Origin: Schlesneria paludicola DSM 18645 | GTDB lineage: Bacteria > Planctomycetota > Planctomycetia > Planctomycetales > Planctomycetaceae | Direction of reading: 5' to 3' | NCBI GenBank assembly: GCA_945862235.1 | Contig: CAMAYU010000003.1 | Coordinates: 1-64,000, forward strand | DNA: 64,000 nt | Shown here: positions 4,350 through 61,380 of the stretch, one piece after another | Layout of the letters: each line of letters begins with the position of its first letter | How positions within the stretch are numbered: the first letter of the stretch is position 1 | Notes under the pieces: model-generated | The model's database searches: none | What the model was told of the DNA's origin: nothing | The model's input: only the letters and a program-made list of their open reading frames with translations | Position numbers and translations under genes: made by a program

Positions 4350-4379
4350 TCTGTGCGACTGCGACCTGCTGAGAAACGC

Positions 4380-4456
4380 GGGATAGGCTTCCAGCCTGTC
4401 AATCTTTCACGTCGATTCACAGGCTGGAAGCCTATGCCACGACGTTTTTCAACAGG
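4380..4456. repeat. Palindromic repeat, family A, copy 1
   Basis: Inverted arms with core GGATAGGCTTCCAGCCTGT and its complement flank a short AT-rich loop; the right arm is followed by CCACGACGTTTTTCAACAGG. It lies 31 bp after the oxidoreductase stop. Related copies are at 16726, 18534 (interrupted), 21911, 35486 and 61290. Confidence 0.9.
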
Positions 4457-16725: not shown

Positions 16726-16790
16726 CGTGGGATAGGCTTCCAGCCTGTCGTTTTCATCCGGGAATCACAGGCTGGAAGCCTATGCCACGG
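16726..16790. repeat. Palindromic repeat, family A, copy 2
   Basis: Arms GGGATAGGCTTCCAGCCTGT and its complement lie around a short loop. The right arm ends one base before the stop codon complement of the gene at 16792-18507, so the hairpin would form at the very 3' end of that mRNA. Confidence 0.92.
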
Positions 16791-16791
16791 G

Positions 16792-18507
16792 TCAGTTCTG
16801 CTTGGGCGCGGAATCTCCGGCCGCATCGGAGCGATACGCGGCTTCGACGAGTCCCAGGGGCCGCTCTTGATCGCTCATGGTCAGCGCATGCAGCCGGGCG
16901 CGCGTCATGTGGAACTTGAGCCGAATCTCCTGGCCCACGAGCTTGCCCAGGTCGGCGTTGTTCGACCAGCGGACCGGGTGGTCGAGAGCGTCTCCCTGGA
17001 TCTCGCGAGACTCGGCGACTGTGAAGCCCGGGATCGGCTGCCAATCGCGGGTCAGCACTTCCACGCGGATGGAGCCTTTCCCCCACGTCGCGGCGTTCAG
17101 GTACAGGCGGGGATGTGAGACGACCAGCGGTTTCGTGAGCACACGGCAGGGCTGCGCATCGGGCGTTCCGGTTTCCAGCGAGGCGAATCGGTCGCGTTTC
17201 AGGGTCGCCAGCGCAACGCCCCCGGAATAATCCGCCGACGCGCTTTCATCGACGTCATGGGGAAAGTTCAGGGCCGCGTAATAAATGTAGATCGTGTCGT
17301 TGACCACGATCGGCCGGGGCTGCGAGCAAGCCATCGCCATGAAGTCGTAATACCCCAACGGCCCATGCGGAATGAACGGCGTCCCGCGACAGACTCGTGT
17401 GAAGTGAGTGCCGTCGCGGCTCGTCGCCAGATGAATGTCGATCGGCTGAGGGTGACGCAGATAGAAGATGCTCACATATCCGACGTACGTCGCGCCGAAC
17501 TTGTGGCAGCCGAATTGATAGAGTTCCGTGTCGGCCGGATCATCGGCGTCCATCGCGAGAATGAATCGATGGTTCTTCCATTCGCGCAGGTCGTCGCTCT
17601 CGGCATAGGCATACGAGCGGTTGTAGCGATCGATGGGCGACCGATTCCGATCGCTGTCGTTGGCGATCATCCGCTCGCTGAACTCGGGGATGATCCGCCG
17701 GTAGATCACCCACTTCCGCTTCGCCTCGTCAAACATCAAGTGCATCAGACAGTCGTCCCCGGTGCCCGCAACATCGTGCGGCGTTTGCCAGAACGGCGAT
17801 GCCGCGCAGGACCAGTGAACGCCATCCGGCGAGGTGACGATGTGCGCTCCTCGGCGGTGATCCTGCACGATCGCCAGTGCGACGTAATTCTCCGACGGAT
17901 CGCGCGGCTGCGGATGCTTGTTGACGCCCCAGAAGAAAGCCTTCTTGCCCTGCGGCACCATCGGCGTCGTCGGAATGACGAATTTCTCCGGACCGTACGC
18001 GAGTCGGGTCGGAGCCTTCGGGATCAGGTCGCTGGCAAAGACGACGTTGTGGTCGCGGCGACCTCCCAGGTCGAAAACTCCCAGATCGGGCTTCTCCCAA
18101 TGGACGCCGTCTCGTGACGTGTAATAGAGGATCCACGCGGCATTACCGCCGACATACCCGGCCTTCGCATCGCTGCCGGCCCGAGCCCACATTTTGAACA
18201 GCTTTTCTTCGGCGTCGTACATCGTCGTGTATGGCTCGATGTACGTTCCCTCGCACCAGCGTTCCGGCCGGATCACGGGATTCAGCAAGTGTTTCTTGGC
18301 CGGGTGCAACTTGCGCGACACGCCAGGAGTCGCTTCCAGCAACTGGTTGTCGAGGAACAATTCCGTCGTGAAGGGGGGCCGGTCAACGGGTCGGCTTCGA
18401 TCGGCCGCCGGCGCCGCGGTCTCGTCCGCCGAAGCGGTCTGCAACGTCAACAGCGCCGCTCCCGCGGTTCCGGCAGCCTGAATGAACTGGCGACGATTCG
18501 ATGTCAT
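16792..18507 (-). CDS. Tat-exported propeller/beta-sandwich glycosidase-like protein
   Basis: The 571-residue product starts with a twin-arginine signal (MTSNRRQFIQAAGTAGAALL). Family motifs follow: TELFLDNQLLEATPG, HPAKKHLLNPVIRPERWCEG, FKMWARAG, YTSRDGVHWEKPDLGVF and TSPDGVHW. ALATLKRDRFASL leads into the C-terminal sandwich with IRVEVLTRDWQPIPGF and RLKFHMTRARLHAL. ATG 18507 is chosen although the frame stays open to 18750, because the extra N-terminal part would only translate intergenic palindromic repeat (it reads GIGFQPV). It is a member of the seven-protein family; its enzyme activity is inferred. Confidence 0.85.
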   Translation of the reverse strand: MTSNRRQFIQAAGTAGAALLTLQTASADETAAPAADRSRPVDRPPFTTELFLDNQLLEATPGVSRKLHPAKKHLLNPVIRPERWCEGTYIEPYTTMYDAEEKLFKMWARAGSDAKAGYVGGNAAWILYYTSRDGVHWEKPDLGVFDLGGRRDHNVVFASDLIPKAPTRLAYGPEKFVIPTTPMVPQGKKAFFWGVNKHPQPRDPSENYVALAIVQDHRRGAHIVTSPDGVHWSCAASPFWQTPHDVAGTGDDCLMHLMFDEAKRKWVIYRRIIPEFSERMIANDSDRNRSPIDRYNRSYAYAESDDLREWKNHRFILAMDADDPADTELYQFGCHKFGATYVGYVSIFYLRHPQPIDIHLATSRDGTHFTRVCRGTPFIPHGPLGYYDFMAMACSQPRPIVVNDTIYIYYAALNFPHDVDESASADYSGGVALATLKRDRFASLETGTPDAQPCRVLTKPLVVSHPRLYLNAATWGKGSIRVEVLTRDWQPIPGFTVAESREIQGDALDHPVRWSNNADLGKLVGQEIRLKFHMTRARLHALTMSDQERPLGLVEAAYRSDAAGDSAPKQN

Positions 18508-18533
18508 CGAGTGATTCCTCGCGGGGGTTTCTT

Positions 18534-18722
18534 CCGTGGCATAGGCTTCCAGCCTGTGAAAAAGTCCGAAGATTGCATCCTGTCCGCATTCGCTTGTCCC
18601 CATTCGTCTGTCATCCCAAATACATAAAGATGACAGACGAATGGGGACAGGCGAATGAAGTCCGCGGCGCTGCCGCCTCAAGAGAAATACGACAGGCTGG
18701 AAGCCTATCCCACGACTTTTCA
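18534..18722. repeat. Palindromic repeat, family A, copy 3, interrupted by a second palindrome
   Basis: The left arm (GGCATAGGCTTCCAGCCTGT, about 18538-18557) and right arm (from about 18692, reading ACAGGCTGGAAGCCTAT) are those of family A. Their loop has been expanded to about 130 bases by an unrelated palindrome at 18587-18657. The right arm ends 12 bp before the stop of the PQQ-propeller gene. Confidence 0.85.
18587..18657. repeat. Nested palindrome, family G, inside the family A copy
   Basis: Two 29-base arms (18587-18615 and 18629-18657, core CCCCATTCGTCTGTCATC) are complementary with one mismatch around a 13-base AT-rich loop. It sits in the loop of the family A repeat, suggesting insertion of one repeat into another. 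Confidence 0.88.
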
Positions 18723-18733
18723 ACGGGGTCGAT

Positions 18734-20269
18734 TTACTTCGCGCGGCCATCAGCGGCGAAGCACATCAACTGTGTTCGCGTGCGGACGAAGAGGCCGCTG
18801 TCGGCGATCGCGGGAGTCGCGACGATGCTCTCGCCGATGTCGTTCACTGCGAGTTCTTCGTAGTCCACTGCGTTCTTCAGGACGGTGACGTTGCCGTTGT
18901 CGCTGGCGAGATAAATTTTCCCATCGCCGAATACGGGAGACGCGAAGTAGCTGCCGCCGCTGCCGATCCGTTTGGGGCCACGCACGGAGTCTCCCTGCTT
19001 CGTGTTGAAGACGGTGCTGATGCCTCCCTCTTTGACCAGAAACATGCGGCCGTCGGAAACGAAGGGCGAGACGATGTGATCGGTGTTCTTCGTCTTGTGC
19101 TTCCACAGCAGGTGCGTTTTCGTGACGTCTCCCCGGCCGCCGCCACGCACCGCCAGAATGAACTGCTCGGCGGCCGCGTCGCCGGTCGCGTTGAAATCGG
19201 CTCCCGCGAAATTGTCGGGATGCAGGAACGCGACATCCAACTCGCGTCCTTCCAGGAAACCGTCTTTGTTGAGGTCGCCGCGATCGAACGTCTTCTTGAA
19301 GAACGCTTCGGGGATCGGTTGCTTGCCGACGAAGCGTTGAATCTCCGCTTTGTCGAGCTTGTTGTCGTTGTTGCCGGCTTTCTCATCGCGATCGACGGAG
19401 GCCAGCCATTGATTGGCGATCGCGCCGCTTTGCACCGAGATGTAAATCACACCGTCGAGACAAACGGGCGTCGTCTTGATGTTTCGCAGCATGACCTTCG
19501 CAAACCAGCGACGCTTGCCAGAATCGGGGTCGTAGCCGATTAACTGGCCGGTCCCCGCCACCACGATCTCATCGCGACCGTCCACCGTGCAGATGACCGG
19601 ATGCGAGTAATTCACCGCCATGTCGAGCCGCTCGTCTCGCCAGCGCAACTTGCCCGTGGCTTTGTCAAAGGCCCAGAACGTGGGATTGAGATCGTCGTCC
19701 TGGCAGAACAACACCAAGTCGCGATACAGCACCGGCGACATTCCCGGTCCCCATTTGAAAACAAAGAACGGCGTCGGGAGTTTCTGCTGCCAGACGTCCT
19801 TGCCGGTCTGTGCATCGACGGTCAGCAGGCCCAGCGTGCTGAAGTAGAAGTAGACTCGCTCGGCATCCGCGGCCGGCGTCGCGCTGGCCTGACTGTTCGT
19901 CGCATGAACTTCCGCGAGCGGTCCGGTCTGCCAATCGCGTTGCCACAGCTTCTTGCCCGTGACGGCATCGAACGCGAACAAGCTGACTGTTTCGTCCGCC
20001 GTCATGCCGCTCACGAAGACTCGCCCGGCCGCGATGACCGAGCCGCCGACACCATCCCCCACCTTCGCGGACCAGCGAACATTCTCGGTCGCCGAAAACT
20101 TGACCGGCAGCGGTTTGGTCCCCGTTGAAATACCCGCGCAATTCGGCCCGCGAAACTGCGGCCAATCATCCGCTTGCACCATCGCGGGAAAGATCACCAG
20201 CGTCAGCAGTCCCGCCGAAACGATCGCGTTACGGAGTTGAGAAGGATGGATGCGGCTCAGGGTTTTCAT
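18734..20269 (-). CDS. Secreted PQQ-type beta-propeller protein with internal EF-hand pair
   Basis: The 511-residue protein has a signal peptide (ending AMVQA) and starts DDWPQFRGPNCAGIS, the hallmark of planctomycete outer-membrane-biogenesis (BamB-like) PQQ propellers. Blades carry GKKLWQRDW, GKDVWQQKL, GKLRWRDERL and GKRRWFAKV. Between blades lie two calcium-binding EF-hand loops, around DEKAGNNDNKLDKAEIQRF and RGDLNKDGFLEGRELD. AAGGAG 6-8 nt before ATG 20269 fixes the start; the open frame continues upstream into a repeat. Such proteins are probably periplasmic scaffolds or binding proteins. True quinone binding is not supported. Confidence 0.88.
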   Translation of the reverse strand: MKTLSRIHPSQLRNAIVSAGLLTLVIFPAMVQADDWPQFRGPNCAGISTGTKPLPVKFSATENVRWSAKVGDGVGGSVIAAGRVFVSGMTADETVSLFAFDAVTGKKLWQRDWQTGPLAEVHATNSQASATPAADAERVYFYFSTLGLLTVDAQTGKDVWQQKLPTPFFVFKWGPGMSPVLYRDLVLFCQDDDLNPTFWAFDKATGKLRWRDERLDMAVNYSHPVICTVDGRDEIVVAGTGQLIGYDPDSGKRRWFAKVMLRNIKTTPVCLDGVIYISVQSGAIANQWLASVDRDEKAGNNDNKLDKAEIQRFVGKQPIPEAFFKKTFDRGDLNKDGFLEGRELDVAFLHPDNFAGADFNATGDAAAEQFILAVRGGGRGDVTKTHLLWKHKTKNTDHIVSPFVSDGRMFLVKEGGISTVFNTKQGDSVRGPKRIGSGGSYFASPVFGDGKIYLASDNGNVTVLKNAVDYEELAVNDIGESIVATPAIADSGLFVRTRTQLMCFAADGRAK

Positions 20270-20314
20270 GCGGACTCCTTCGTTTTCAAGACTTGTTGCA
20301 AGTGAGTCAAGTTT

Positions 20315-20384
20315 TCTCCGCGCTCTTCGCTCCTCTGCGGTGAAGAAACACGTTGCACCGCAGAGAAGCGAAGAGCGCAGAGAA
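20315..20384. repeat. Palindromic repeat, family B, copy 2
   Basis: Inverted arms with core CGCTCTTCGCTCCTCTGCGG and complement surround a 14-base loop. It lies between the DUF1501 stop at 20427 and the PQQ-propeller start at 20269. Compare copy 1 at 1353-1423. Confidence 0.88.
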
Positions 20385-21851: not shown

Positions 21852-21910
21852 GATGCTCGCCCGCGTTGAAGATGTTTCAAAGTCGTTGAGTCGTGAGAGC
21901 CGTGGGAGCC

Positions 21911-21985
21911 GTGGGATAGGCTTCCAGCCTGTCATTTACTTCGGGGAATCACAGGCTGGAAGCCTATGCCACGAAGTTTTTCAAT
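21911..21985. repeat. Palindromic repeat, family A, copy 4
   Basis: Arms GGGATAGGCTTCCAGCCTGT and complement, followed by CCACGAAGTTTTTCAAT, lie between the two DUF1501 genes. The repeat begins about 60 bp before the ATG of the downstream gene. Confidence 0.92.
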
Positions 21986-35456: not shown

Positions 35457-35485
35457 GTCGTGCTCCTTAGCAGGCTGGTTAAAGA

Positions 35486-35563
35486 CGTGGGATAGGCTTC
35501 CAGCCTGTCGATTATTTGCGGCAATTCACAGGCTGGAAGCCTATGCCACGACTTTTTTCAACC
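35486..35563. repeat. Palindromic repeat, family A, copy 5
   Basis: Arms GGGATAGGCTTCCAGCCTGT and complement, followed by CCACGACTTTTTTCAAC, extend to within 10 bp of the stop of the gene at 35573-38530. A weaker outer arm (AGGCTGGTTAAAGACG) precedes it. Confidence 0.92.
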
Positions 35564-46791: not shown

Positions 46792-46875
46792 CAGCCCTGA
46801 CCTCCCTTGATCCCTTTGCCTCGCTCCAATCTCCTACTTCTGGCTCTCCGCCATTTGTGTTGAATTCGGTGTCTT

Positions 46876-46940
46876 GTGAGCCGCAAGGCGCTAGCCGCGG
46901 GTTCTCTTCCTCGACCCGCGGCTAGCGCCTTGCGGCTCAC
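46876..46940. repeat. Perfect 26-bp palindrome, family C
   Basis: Arms 46876-46901 and 46915-46940 (core GCCGCAAGGCGCTAGCCGCGG and complement) are perfectly complementary around a 13-base loop. It lies between the FG-GAP gene stop (46973) and the next start (46791), where it could terminate or stabilise the FG-GAP mRNA. Confidence 0.93.
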
Positions 46941-46972
46941 GAATTCGTTTTCAACAGGAATGGCGGAGAGCC

Positions 46973-61289: not shown

Positions 61290-61380
61290 AGTGGGATGGG
61301 CATCCTGCCTGTCATTGGTTTCTGTCATTGATTTGCTGAGAGTTTTGACCGGCTGGAAGCCTATCCCACGGTTCTTCAAC
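61290..61380. repeat. Palindromic repeat, family A, copy 6 (degenerate hybrid)
   Basis: The right arm (CCGGCTGGAAGCCTATCCCACGG) is family A. The left arm is altered to GTGGGATGGGCATCCTGCCTGTC, a related but distinct palindrome arm. It lies between the gene ending at 61387 and the start at 61216. Confidence 0.7.

Follow-up and report, generated by a model that had tools for sequence, protein, structure and literature searches.

In a 64,000-nt stretch of DNA from the source genome (hereafter the window), we found a REPIN-like doublet that carries an unrelated palindrome in its spacer (positions 18534-18722). The most likely explanation is that this palindrome arrived by insertion, in a genome where nesting of this kind recurs, and we put the probability of this reading as a whole, with the doublet as one case of a genome-wide nesting habit, at roughly 0.6. 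A different repeat, made of 14-bp units, would have entered the spacer as a short, mobile, MITE-like insertion and in doing so probably duplicated the heptamer AAGTCCG; genome-wide, small mobile palindromes would land in other palindromic repeats and give rise to Russian-doll hairpins. We infer for this site that the outer palindrome came first and the inner one later, that AAGTCCG was genuinely duplicated, and that an enzyme of a duplication-making kind was responsible.

A REPIN-like doublet with a second palindrome in its spacer

The initial annotation had described a family A palindrome at this site whose loop holds a second palindrome with 29-nt arms, and we confirmed this arrangement, coordinates included. 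The outer arms are 23 nt each (96% complementary) and stand 134 nt apart, while the arms of the inner palindrome (B) are 29 nt each (97% complementary) with 13 nt between them (Table 1). Relative to most other family A copies in the window, the outer copy (18535-18714) is inverted.

Table 1. Positions of the compound structure, the other family A doublets and a second nested palindrome in the window
Feature	Position	Strand	Remarks
Outer palindrome, left arm	18535-18557	+	family A REP, GTGG-tagged, GTGGCATAGGCTTCCAGCCTGTG variant
AAGTCCG, left copy	18562-18568	+	candidate target duplication
Asymmetric 18-nt tail	18569-18586	+	from left AAGTCCG to inner left arm; part of a further 14-bp unit within; basis: sequence
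Inner palindrome B, left arm	18587-18615	+	14-bp units, read inward = CCCCATTCGYCTGT
Inner palindrome B, right arm	18629-18657	-	
AAGTCCG, right copy	18658-18664	+	candidate target duplication; abuts inner right arm
Outer palindrome, right arm	18692-18714	-	family A REP, GTGGGATAGGCTTCCAGCCTGTC on minus strand
Family A doublet	4377-4441		no inner palindrome; spacer 19 nt
Family A doublet	16726-16789		no inner palindrome; spacer 18 nt
Family A doublet	21910-21973		no inner palindrome; spacer 18 nt
Family A doublet	35481-35555		no inner palindrome; spacer 19 nt
Family A doublet, degenerate	61296-61364		spacer 35 nt
Second nested palindrome	46842-46972		outer 46842-46864/46950-46972; inner 46876-46902/46914-46940

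The family A arm consists of GTGG followed by GATAGGCT, TCC and AGCCTGTC, and folds as an 8-bp stem (with one G-T pair) and a 3-nt loop; in the other arm variant the basal pair is swapped to C-G and the fold is unchanged. Among 38 half-sites read in the source genome, the basal stem pair was G-C in 29, C-G in 6 and unpaired in 3 (A-C in 2, C-C in 1), with the swaps sitting in related copies and therefore counting as few events. A REP is defined by a GTAG or GTGG tag 0-2 nt ahead of a 7-20 bp hairpin with a 2-5 nt loop (PMC6006769). Both arm variants of the outer palindrome carry such a tag and hairpin, and the family occurs as dispersed inverted pairs with a short spacer. We classify the outer palindrome as a REPIN-like doublet, composed of two inverted GTGG-tagged REP hairpins and a spacer. 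We use this term in place of REPIN because no RAYT gene adjoins family A: the family lay beside none of the six Y1 transposase loci of the source genome, so the same REP does not flank a RAYT, and neither the window nor the family A loci from other genomes gave a Y1 match.

The source genome contains 22 family A half-sites (at most 1 mismatch). Across 120 sampled genomes of its taxonomic family, family A was present in 24 (source included) from 14 of 58 genera, with a maximum of 147 half-sites in one genome, and it was found in none of the five other congeners in that sample. A TTTTTCAACAGGC-like stretch lies just to the right of most family A copies in the window (ends near 4441, 18714, 21973, 35555 and 61364). 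Other palindrome families have a similar stretch at their border (GCCTGTTGAAAAA at L156:13689 and L197:1284), and it is possibly a landing site common to several of them.

The inner palindrome and possible traces of its entry

The inner palindrome is built of a 14-bp unit, ACAGRCGAATGGGG, and differs from a REP or REPIN in that its arm bears no GTAG or GTGG tag and folds at just -0.8 kcal/mol. Its 15-base core (at most 2 mismatches) occurs at 16 places in the source genome, two of which are its own arms; within 150 nt of the other 14 places no inverted repeat exceeds a score of 11, compared with 26 for the inner palindrome, which is single-copy in the source genome. In BLAST searches it was missing from all 39 relatives covered in addition to the source genome, and among 392 genomes of the phylum its palindromic core was present in one, namely the source genome. 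A search of plasmids gave nothing useful, and the one match in viral contigs was a single unit-like sequence with no such palindrome, which we took as chance.

When 84,980 species genomes were scanned with a tandem-unit pattern, one that is blind to single units and to the source genome, matches were found only in the Verrucomicrobiales MAG H5_VER1 (4 places). This genome has 37 exact 13-base matches to the 14-bp unit, arranged as tandem and inverted clusters; a 17-base unit pattern matched 34 times in H5_VER1 and in none of the remaining 193 genomes sampled from that phylum, and a 25-base run of the window (ACAGACGAATGGGGACAGGCGAATG) was found there exactly, by reading. At L072:979-1518, H5_VER1 carries a minisatellite-like run of 21 forward units. 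All 14 of the two-strand H5_VER1 clusters place forward units first and reverse units last, whereas the inner palindrome of the window reads reverse-reverse-forward-forward (--++) and is inside-out with respect to them. The unit is thus shared with H5_VER1, but with the polarity reversed the palindromes are different objects. The H5_VER1 clusters gave no duplication signal (direct repeat of at least 6 in 3 of 14, null mean 2.6). We also considered a RAYT as the mover of the 14-bp unit and rejected it: the 21 Y1 loci of two genomes held only isolated 2-mismatch matches to the unit, with no unit clusters or palindromes. Family A was likewise absent from the surroundings of all 21.

The flanks of the inner palindrome contain a 7-bp direct repeat, AAGTCCG, one copy of which abuts the inner right arm; the other is separated from the inner left arm by 18 nt. 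A direct repeat this long abutting an arm was obtained in 0.36% of shuffles (P = 0.0036) and 0.66% of random genomic pairs (P = 0.0066); with any position in both flanks allowed, the figures rose to 3.4% and 6.2%, respectively. These frequencies are suggestive of AAGTCCG being a target duplication of the insertion. Assignment of the inner palindrome to the MITEs, which are marked by terminal inverted repeats and a target site duplication, is putative: it has inverted arms and this direct repeat (P = 0.004-0.007), and it is single-copy with an asymmetric tail. Several points speak against insertion: the 18-nt tail is found on just one flank, and the loop minus the element and one AAGTCCG is 38 nt, longer than the usual spacer; the reversed polarity and missing duplication signal of the H5_VER1 clusters, and the isolated unit matches at the Y1 loci, also weigh against it.

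The compound fills the gap between two minus-strand genes, P0002 (start codon at 18507), which has no Pfam match and a start that resembles a Tat signal as judged by eye, and P0001 (stop codon 18734-18736), which encodes a PQQ-type beta-propeller protein (PF13360); a DUF1501 gene near the site suggests a planctomycete. We sought an empty orthologous site via both flanking proteins and found none. Relatives of P0001 (62-64% identity) occur in six congeners, none of which has P0002 within 1.5 kb of them, and a relative of P0002 (68%) occurs in 1 of 14 congeners, on a contig other than that of its close P0001 relative, such that the two genes were not neighbours in any congener found. Taken together, it is likely, if unproven, that the inner palindrome got to this site by insertion.

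Nested palindromes across the genome and competing explanations

We surveyed 1,554,042 bases of the source genome (1.55 of 6.83 Mb, 23%), made up of the window and further stretches, some of which were chosen for family A matches. This sample contained 282 tight hairpins and, of its 99 wide inverted repeats, 20 enclose a tight hairpin. In 1.55 Mb of sequence simulated with a first-order Markov model of equal composition there were neither hairpins nor nested pairs of this quality, and 400 kb of one congener yielded 9 tight hairpins, 1 wide inverted repeat and no nesting. The palindromes of the sample formed 90 clusters, of which 44 have two or more members, and 10 of the 23 long-spacer members of short-spacer families held another detected palindrome. 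Several nesting layers were recognized by reading at L219:3932-4176. The second nested palindrome of the window (Table 1) has GAATTCG on both sides of its inner palindrome, abutting on the right; since GAATTC is self-complementary, these copies could be part of the outer stem. Yet another palindrome (CTCTGCGCTCTTCGCTTCTCTGCGGTGAA type) is present twice in the window, at 1352-1424 and 20314-20384, one copy having a 1-nt loop, and at L183:8484-8725 a GCGCAGACGACTTT unit makes up another tandem and inverted array, its inverted repeats densely packed and overlapping.

Matched by arm sequence, family palindromes flank four of the six Y1 transposase loci of the source genome (family C6 at L102, C10 at L104, C1 at L106 and C16 at L108), with the remaining two having a palindrome of its own (L099) and none of note (L110). 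Because the sister families C1, C6, C10 and C16 flank Y1 genes, the palindrome families are in part REPIN-RAYT systems. We found no convincing signal of target duplication in 17 simple doublet families, where the z values of about 2-5 are the highest picked from trials over many offsets and widths. IS200/IS605-type (Y1) transposition is not known to make a target duplication, and the missing duplications at simple doublets are as expected from this chemistry.

Insertion of one element elsewhere in the genome, a 121-bp element of two layers, is well supported. Its outer palindrome, AATGGCACTCACTTTG, occurs at 15 places, of which 14 hold GGCGCTAGCC-type sequence inside (mostly with a spacer of 89 nt, and 39 nt in a shortened copy) and one has a 19-nt spacer without such sequence. 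The flanks of 12 of the 15 copies agree at 10 or more of 12 bases, with the agreement confined to 10 positions. Nine different left 12-mers were present, the repeats matching within a locus and differing between loci, and none of 20,000 partner shuffles reached the observed flank-identity sum. The locus-specific target duplication characteristic of a MITE was found for this element, with 3 of the 15 copies lacking it. At the L154, L161 and L189 copies the flanks read as inverted and not direct repeats, which either counts against the insertion reading or reflects later change.

The 10-bp direct repeats of the 121-bp element lie mostly in REP cores, and in four of five folded sequences the duplicated ten bases form the tip of a bulged REP hairpin, with an apical stem of 3 bp and a loop of 4 nt (the exception being the L190 sequence, with no such fold). 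Since REP cores are themselves repeated, some of these direct repeats could stem from neighbouring REPs, an origin that is disfavoured because the variants are locus-specific (among them GGGCTTACGGC, GGACTCACGC and GGCCTCACGGC). It is most likely that this nested palindrome element inserts into REP hairpins, and its recognition may be of sequence instead of hairpin shape. MITEs of IS4/IS231-like elements have the target GGG(N)5CCC. The 121-bp element resembles these in having inverted ends and a GGC...GCC-like target that is directly repeated over 10 bp, and differs from them in that no parent IS was found in the 1.55 Mb sampled: a search for a parent transposase by its ends (CAATGGCACTCACTTT) returned no convincing full-length candidate in this part of the 6.83-Mb genome. 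One locus, L218, was rejected as parent, as its listed pair of ends joins two separate copies.

The proposed mobility of at least one repeat family is supported by the dispersal of family A, by the sister families beside Y1 genes and by the locus-specific 10-bp repeats of the 121-bp element. Given that this two-layer repeat appears inserted into hairpin repeats, insertion of repeat into repeat probably also explains the structure at 18534-18722.

A competing explanation grants insertion and denies targeting alone: the inner repeat would insert anywhere between genes and have struck a loop at random, which we regard as a serious contender at somewhat short of even odds. Among 322 testable doublets, 25, representing 14 distinct pairs, were enclosed by the arms of another cluster, and 6 interrupted an arm. 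A model of uniform insertion for 333 doublets, which uses crude gene calls (226 of the 333 doublet centres fall between genes), by itself yields 6.6 loop cases (5-95%: 3-11), in line with random nesting; it also predicts 15.7 arm cases (10-22), against the 6 seen, a weak argument for targeting given that one replicated composite inflates the loop cases. The surplus of distinct loop pairs over arm pairs (14 against 6, P = 0.0002) was withdrawn as proof that loops are targeted, on two grounds: copies of a single composite, which itself targets REP cores within arms, make up the majority of the loop cases, and long spacers occur often. The suggestion that a mobile repeat can target hairpin loops stands insofar as the 121-bp element supports insertion into REP hairpins; a preference for loops as such was not established. 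For the inner palindrome itself, the choice of this loop as a hairpin loop is conjectural, with long loops lacking a strong inner palindrome in 10 of 32 doublets of other genomes, a confounded loop-versus-arm count and no empty site.

Rather unlikely is an explanation in which the doublet can carry any spacer and the inner palindrome was already part of the stretch that its arms flank or have captured. Spacers measured 18-35 nt in 15 of the 17 distinct source-genome doublets, 53 nt in one and 134 nt in the nested one, and 13-33 nt in 22 and 48-101 nt in 10 of the 32 family A doublets from other genomes, counts that differ from a random sample in that the stretches were picked from listed matches, many because two arms stood close. 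Folding revealed no strong inner palindrome in any of the 10 long-spacer doublets (48-101 nt), so a long spacer does not require the insertion of a palindrome; these ten doublets, along with the 63 nt of sequence besides the inner palindrome in the 18534-18722 loop, favour such passive carriage. It is opposed by AAGTCCG abutting the inner arm, by the 18-35 nt spacers of most source-genome doublets, and by the sister composite, the 121-bp element, which shows insertion. Nor is the compound structure the normal form of the repeat, as 16 of the 17 doublets of the source genome and all 32 from other genomes have no such inner palindrome. The doublet with the 53-nt spacer sits on contig C358 (L150) of the source assembly, which shares 97.7% identity over 3 kb, and an identical family A doublet, with a genome of another genus; judging by this sequence match, C358 is probably a contaminant. 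A third genome has the C358 region at 79%, carrying a doublet of its own.

That the whole was made as one regulatory hairpin (a terminator, attenuator or mRNA stabiliser) and owes nothing to mobility is very unlikely. The strength of the fold (-114.1 kcal/mol for RNA of 18514-18742; z = -10.3, equalled by none of 200 shuffles) and the position between two co-directional genes are in keeping with such a role; yet an Rfam scan of the whole window found no RNA family match, the inner part is single-copy, and the outer part is dispersed and normally lacks the inner. Least probable of all is a misjoining of short repeats in the draft assembly, which has 377 contigs, at least one of them (C358) apparently foreign, for the A arms, the flanking genes and the inner palindrome all lie within one 84-kb contig and, the inner palindrome being single-copy, there is no duplicate of it to mislead assembly.

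Relation to known mobile repeats

As far as the available part of the REPIN paper goes (Bertels and Rainey 2011, PMC3116915), the structures described here share with REPINs an inverted REP pair that forms a hairpin with its spacer and occurs in many dispersed copies, and the sister families, like REPINs with their RAYTs, adjoin Y1 transposase genes. Unlike the REPINs in that part of the paper, family A here has no RAYT next to it, tens of families share the one genome, and some spacers contain other palindromes; the term 'nested' is absent from the paper. Family A similarly resembles the GTAG-tagged head-head REP dimers of Di Nocera et al. 2013 (PMC3733652), with a terminal GTAG or GTGG by a short stem-loop and inverted dimers whose tags point outward; the available part of that paper neither shows family A nor uses the term 'nested'. 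Mobile DNA that inserts specifically into REP palindromes is exemplified by IS1397, IS621, ISPpu9 and ISPpu10 (Tobes and Pareja 2006, PMC1525189). These are full insertion sequences, whereas here gene-less short palindromes insert. A partly too broad literature search for nested palindromes in bacterial genomes, judged by title and start of abstract, found none.

REPINs and MITEs are usually handled family by family. A broader picture, which we offer tentatively and lean against as a whole, is that several unrelated classes of small palindromic elements may land in each other's hairpin tips, so that hairpins would grow from within and the composites would spread; the structure at 18534-18722 would then be a fresh case, an immigrant palindrome in a REPIN spacer. 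Nested layers give the relative order of insertions, and tens of families, layered nesting and repeats in REP cores together make it testable whether hairpin tips are preferred and whether nesting makes new composites.
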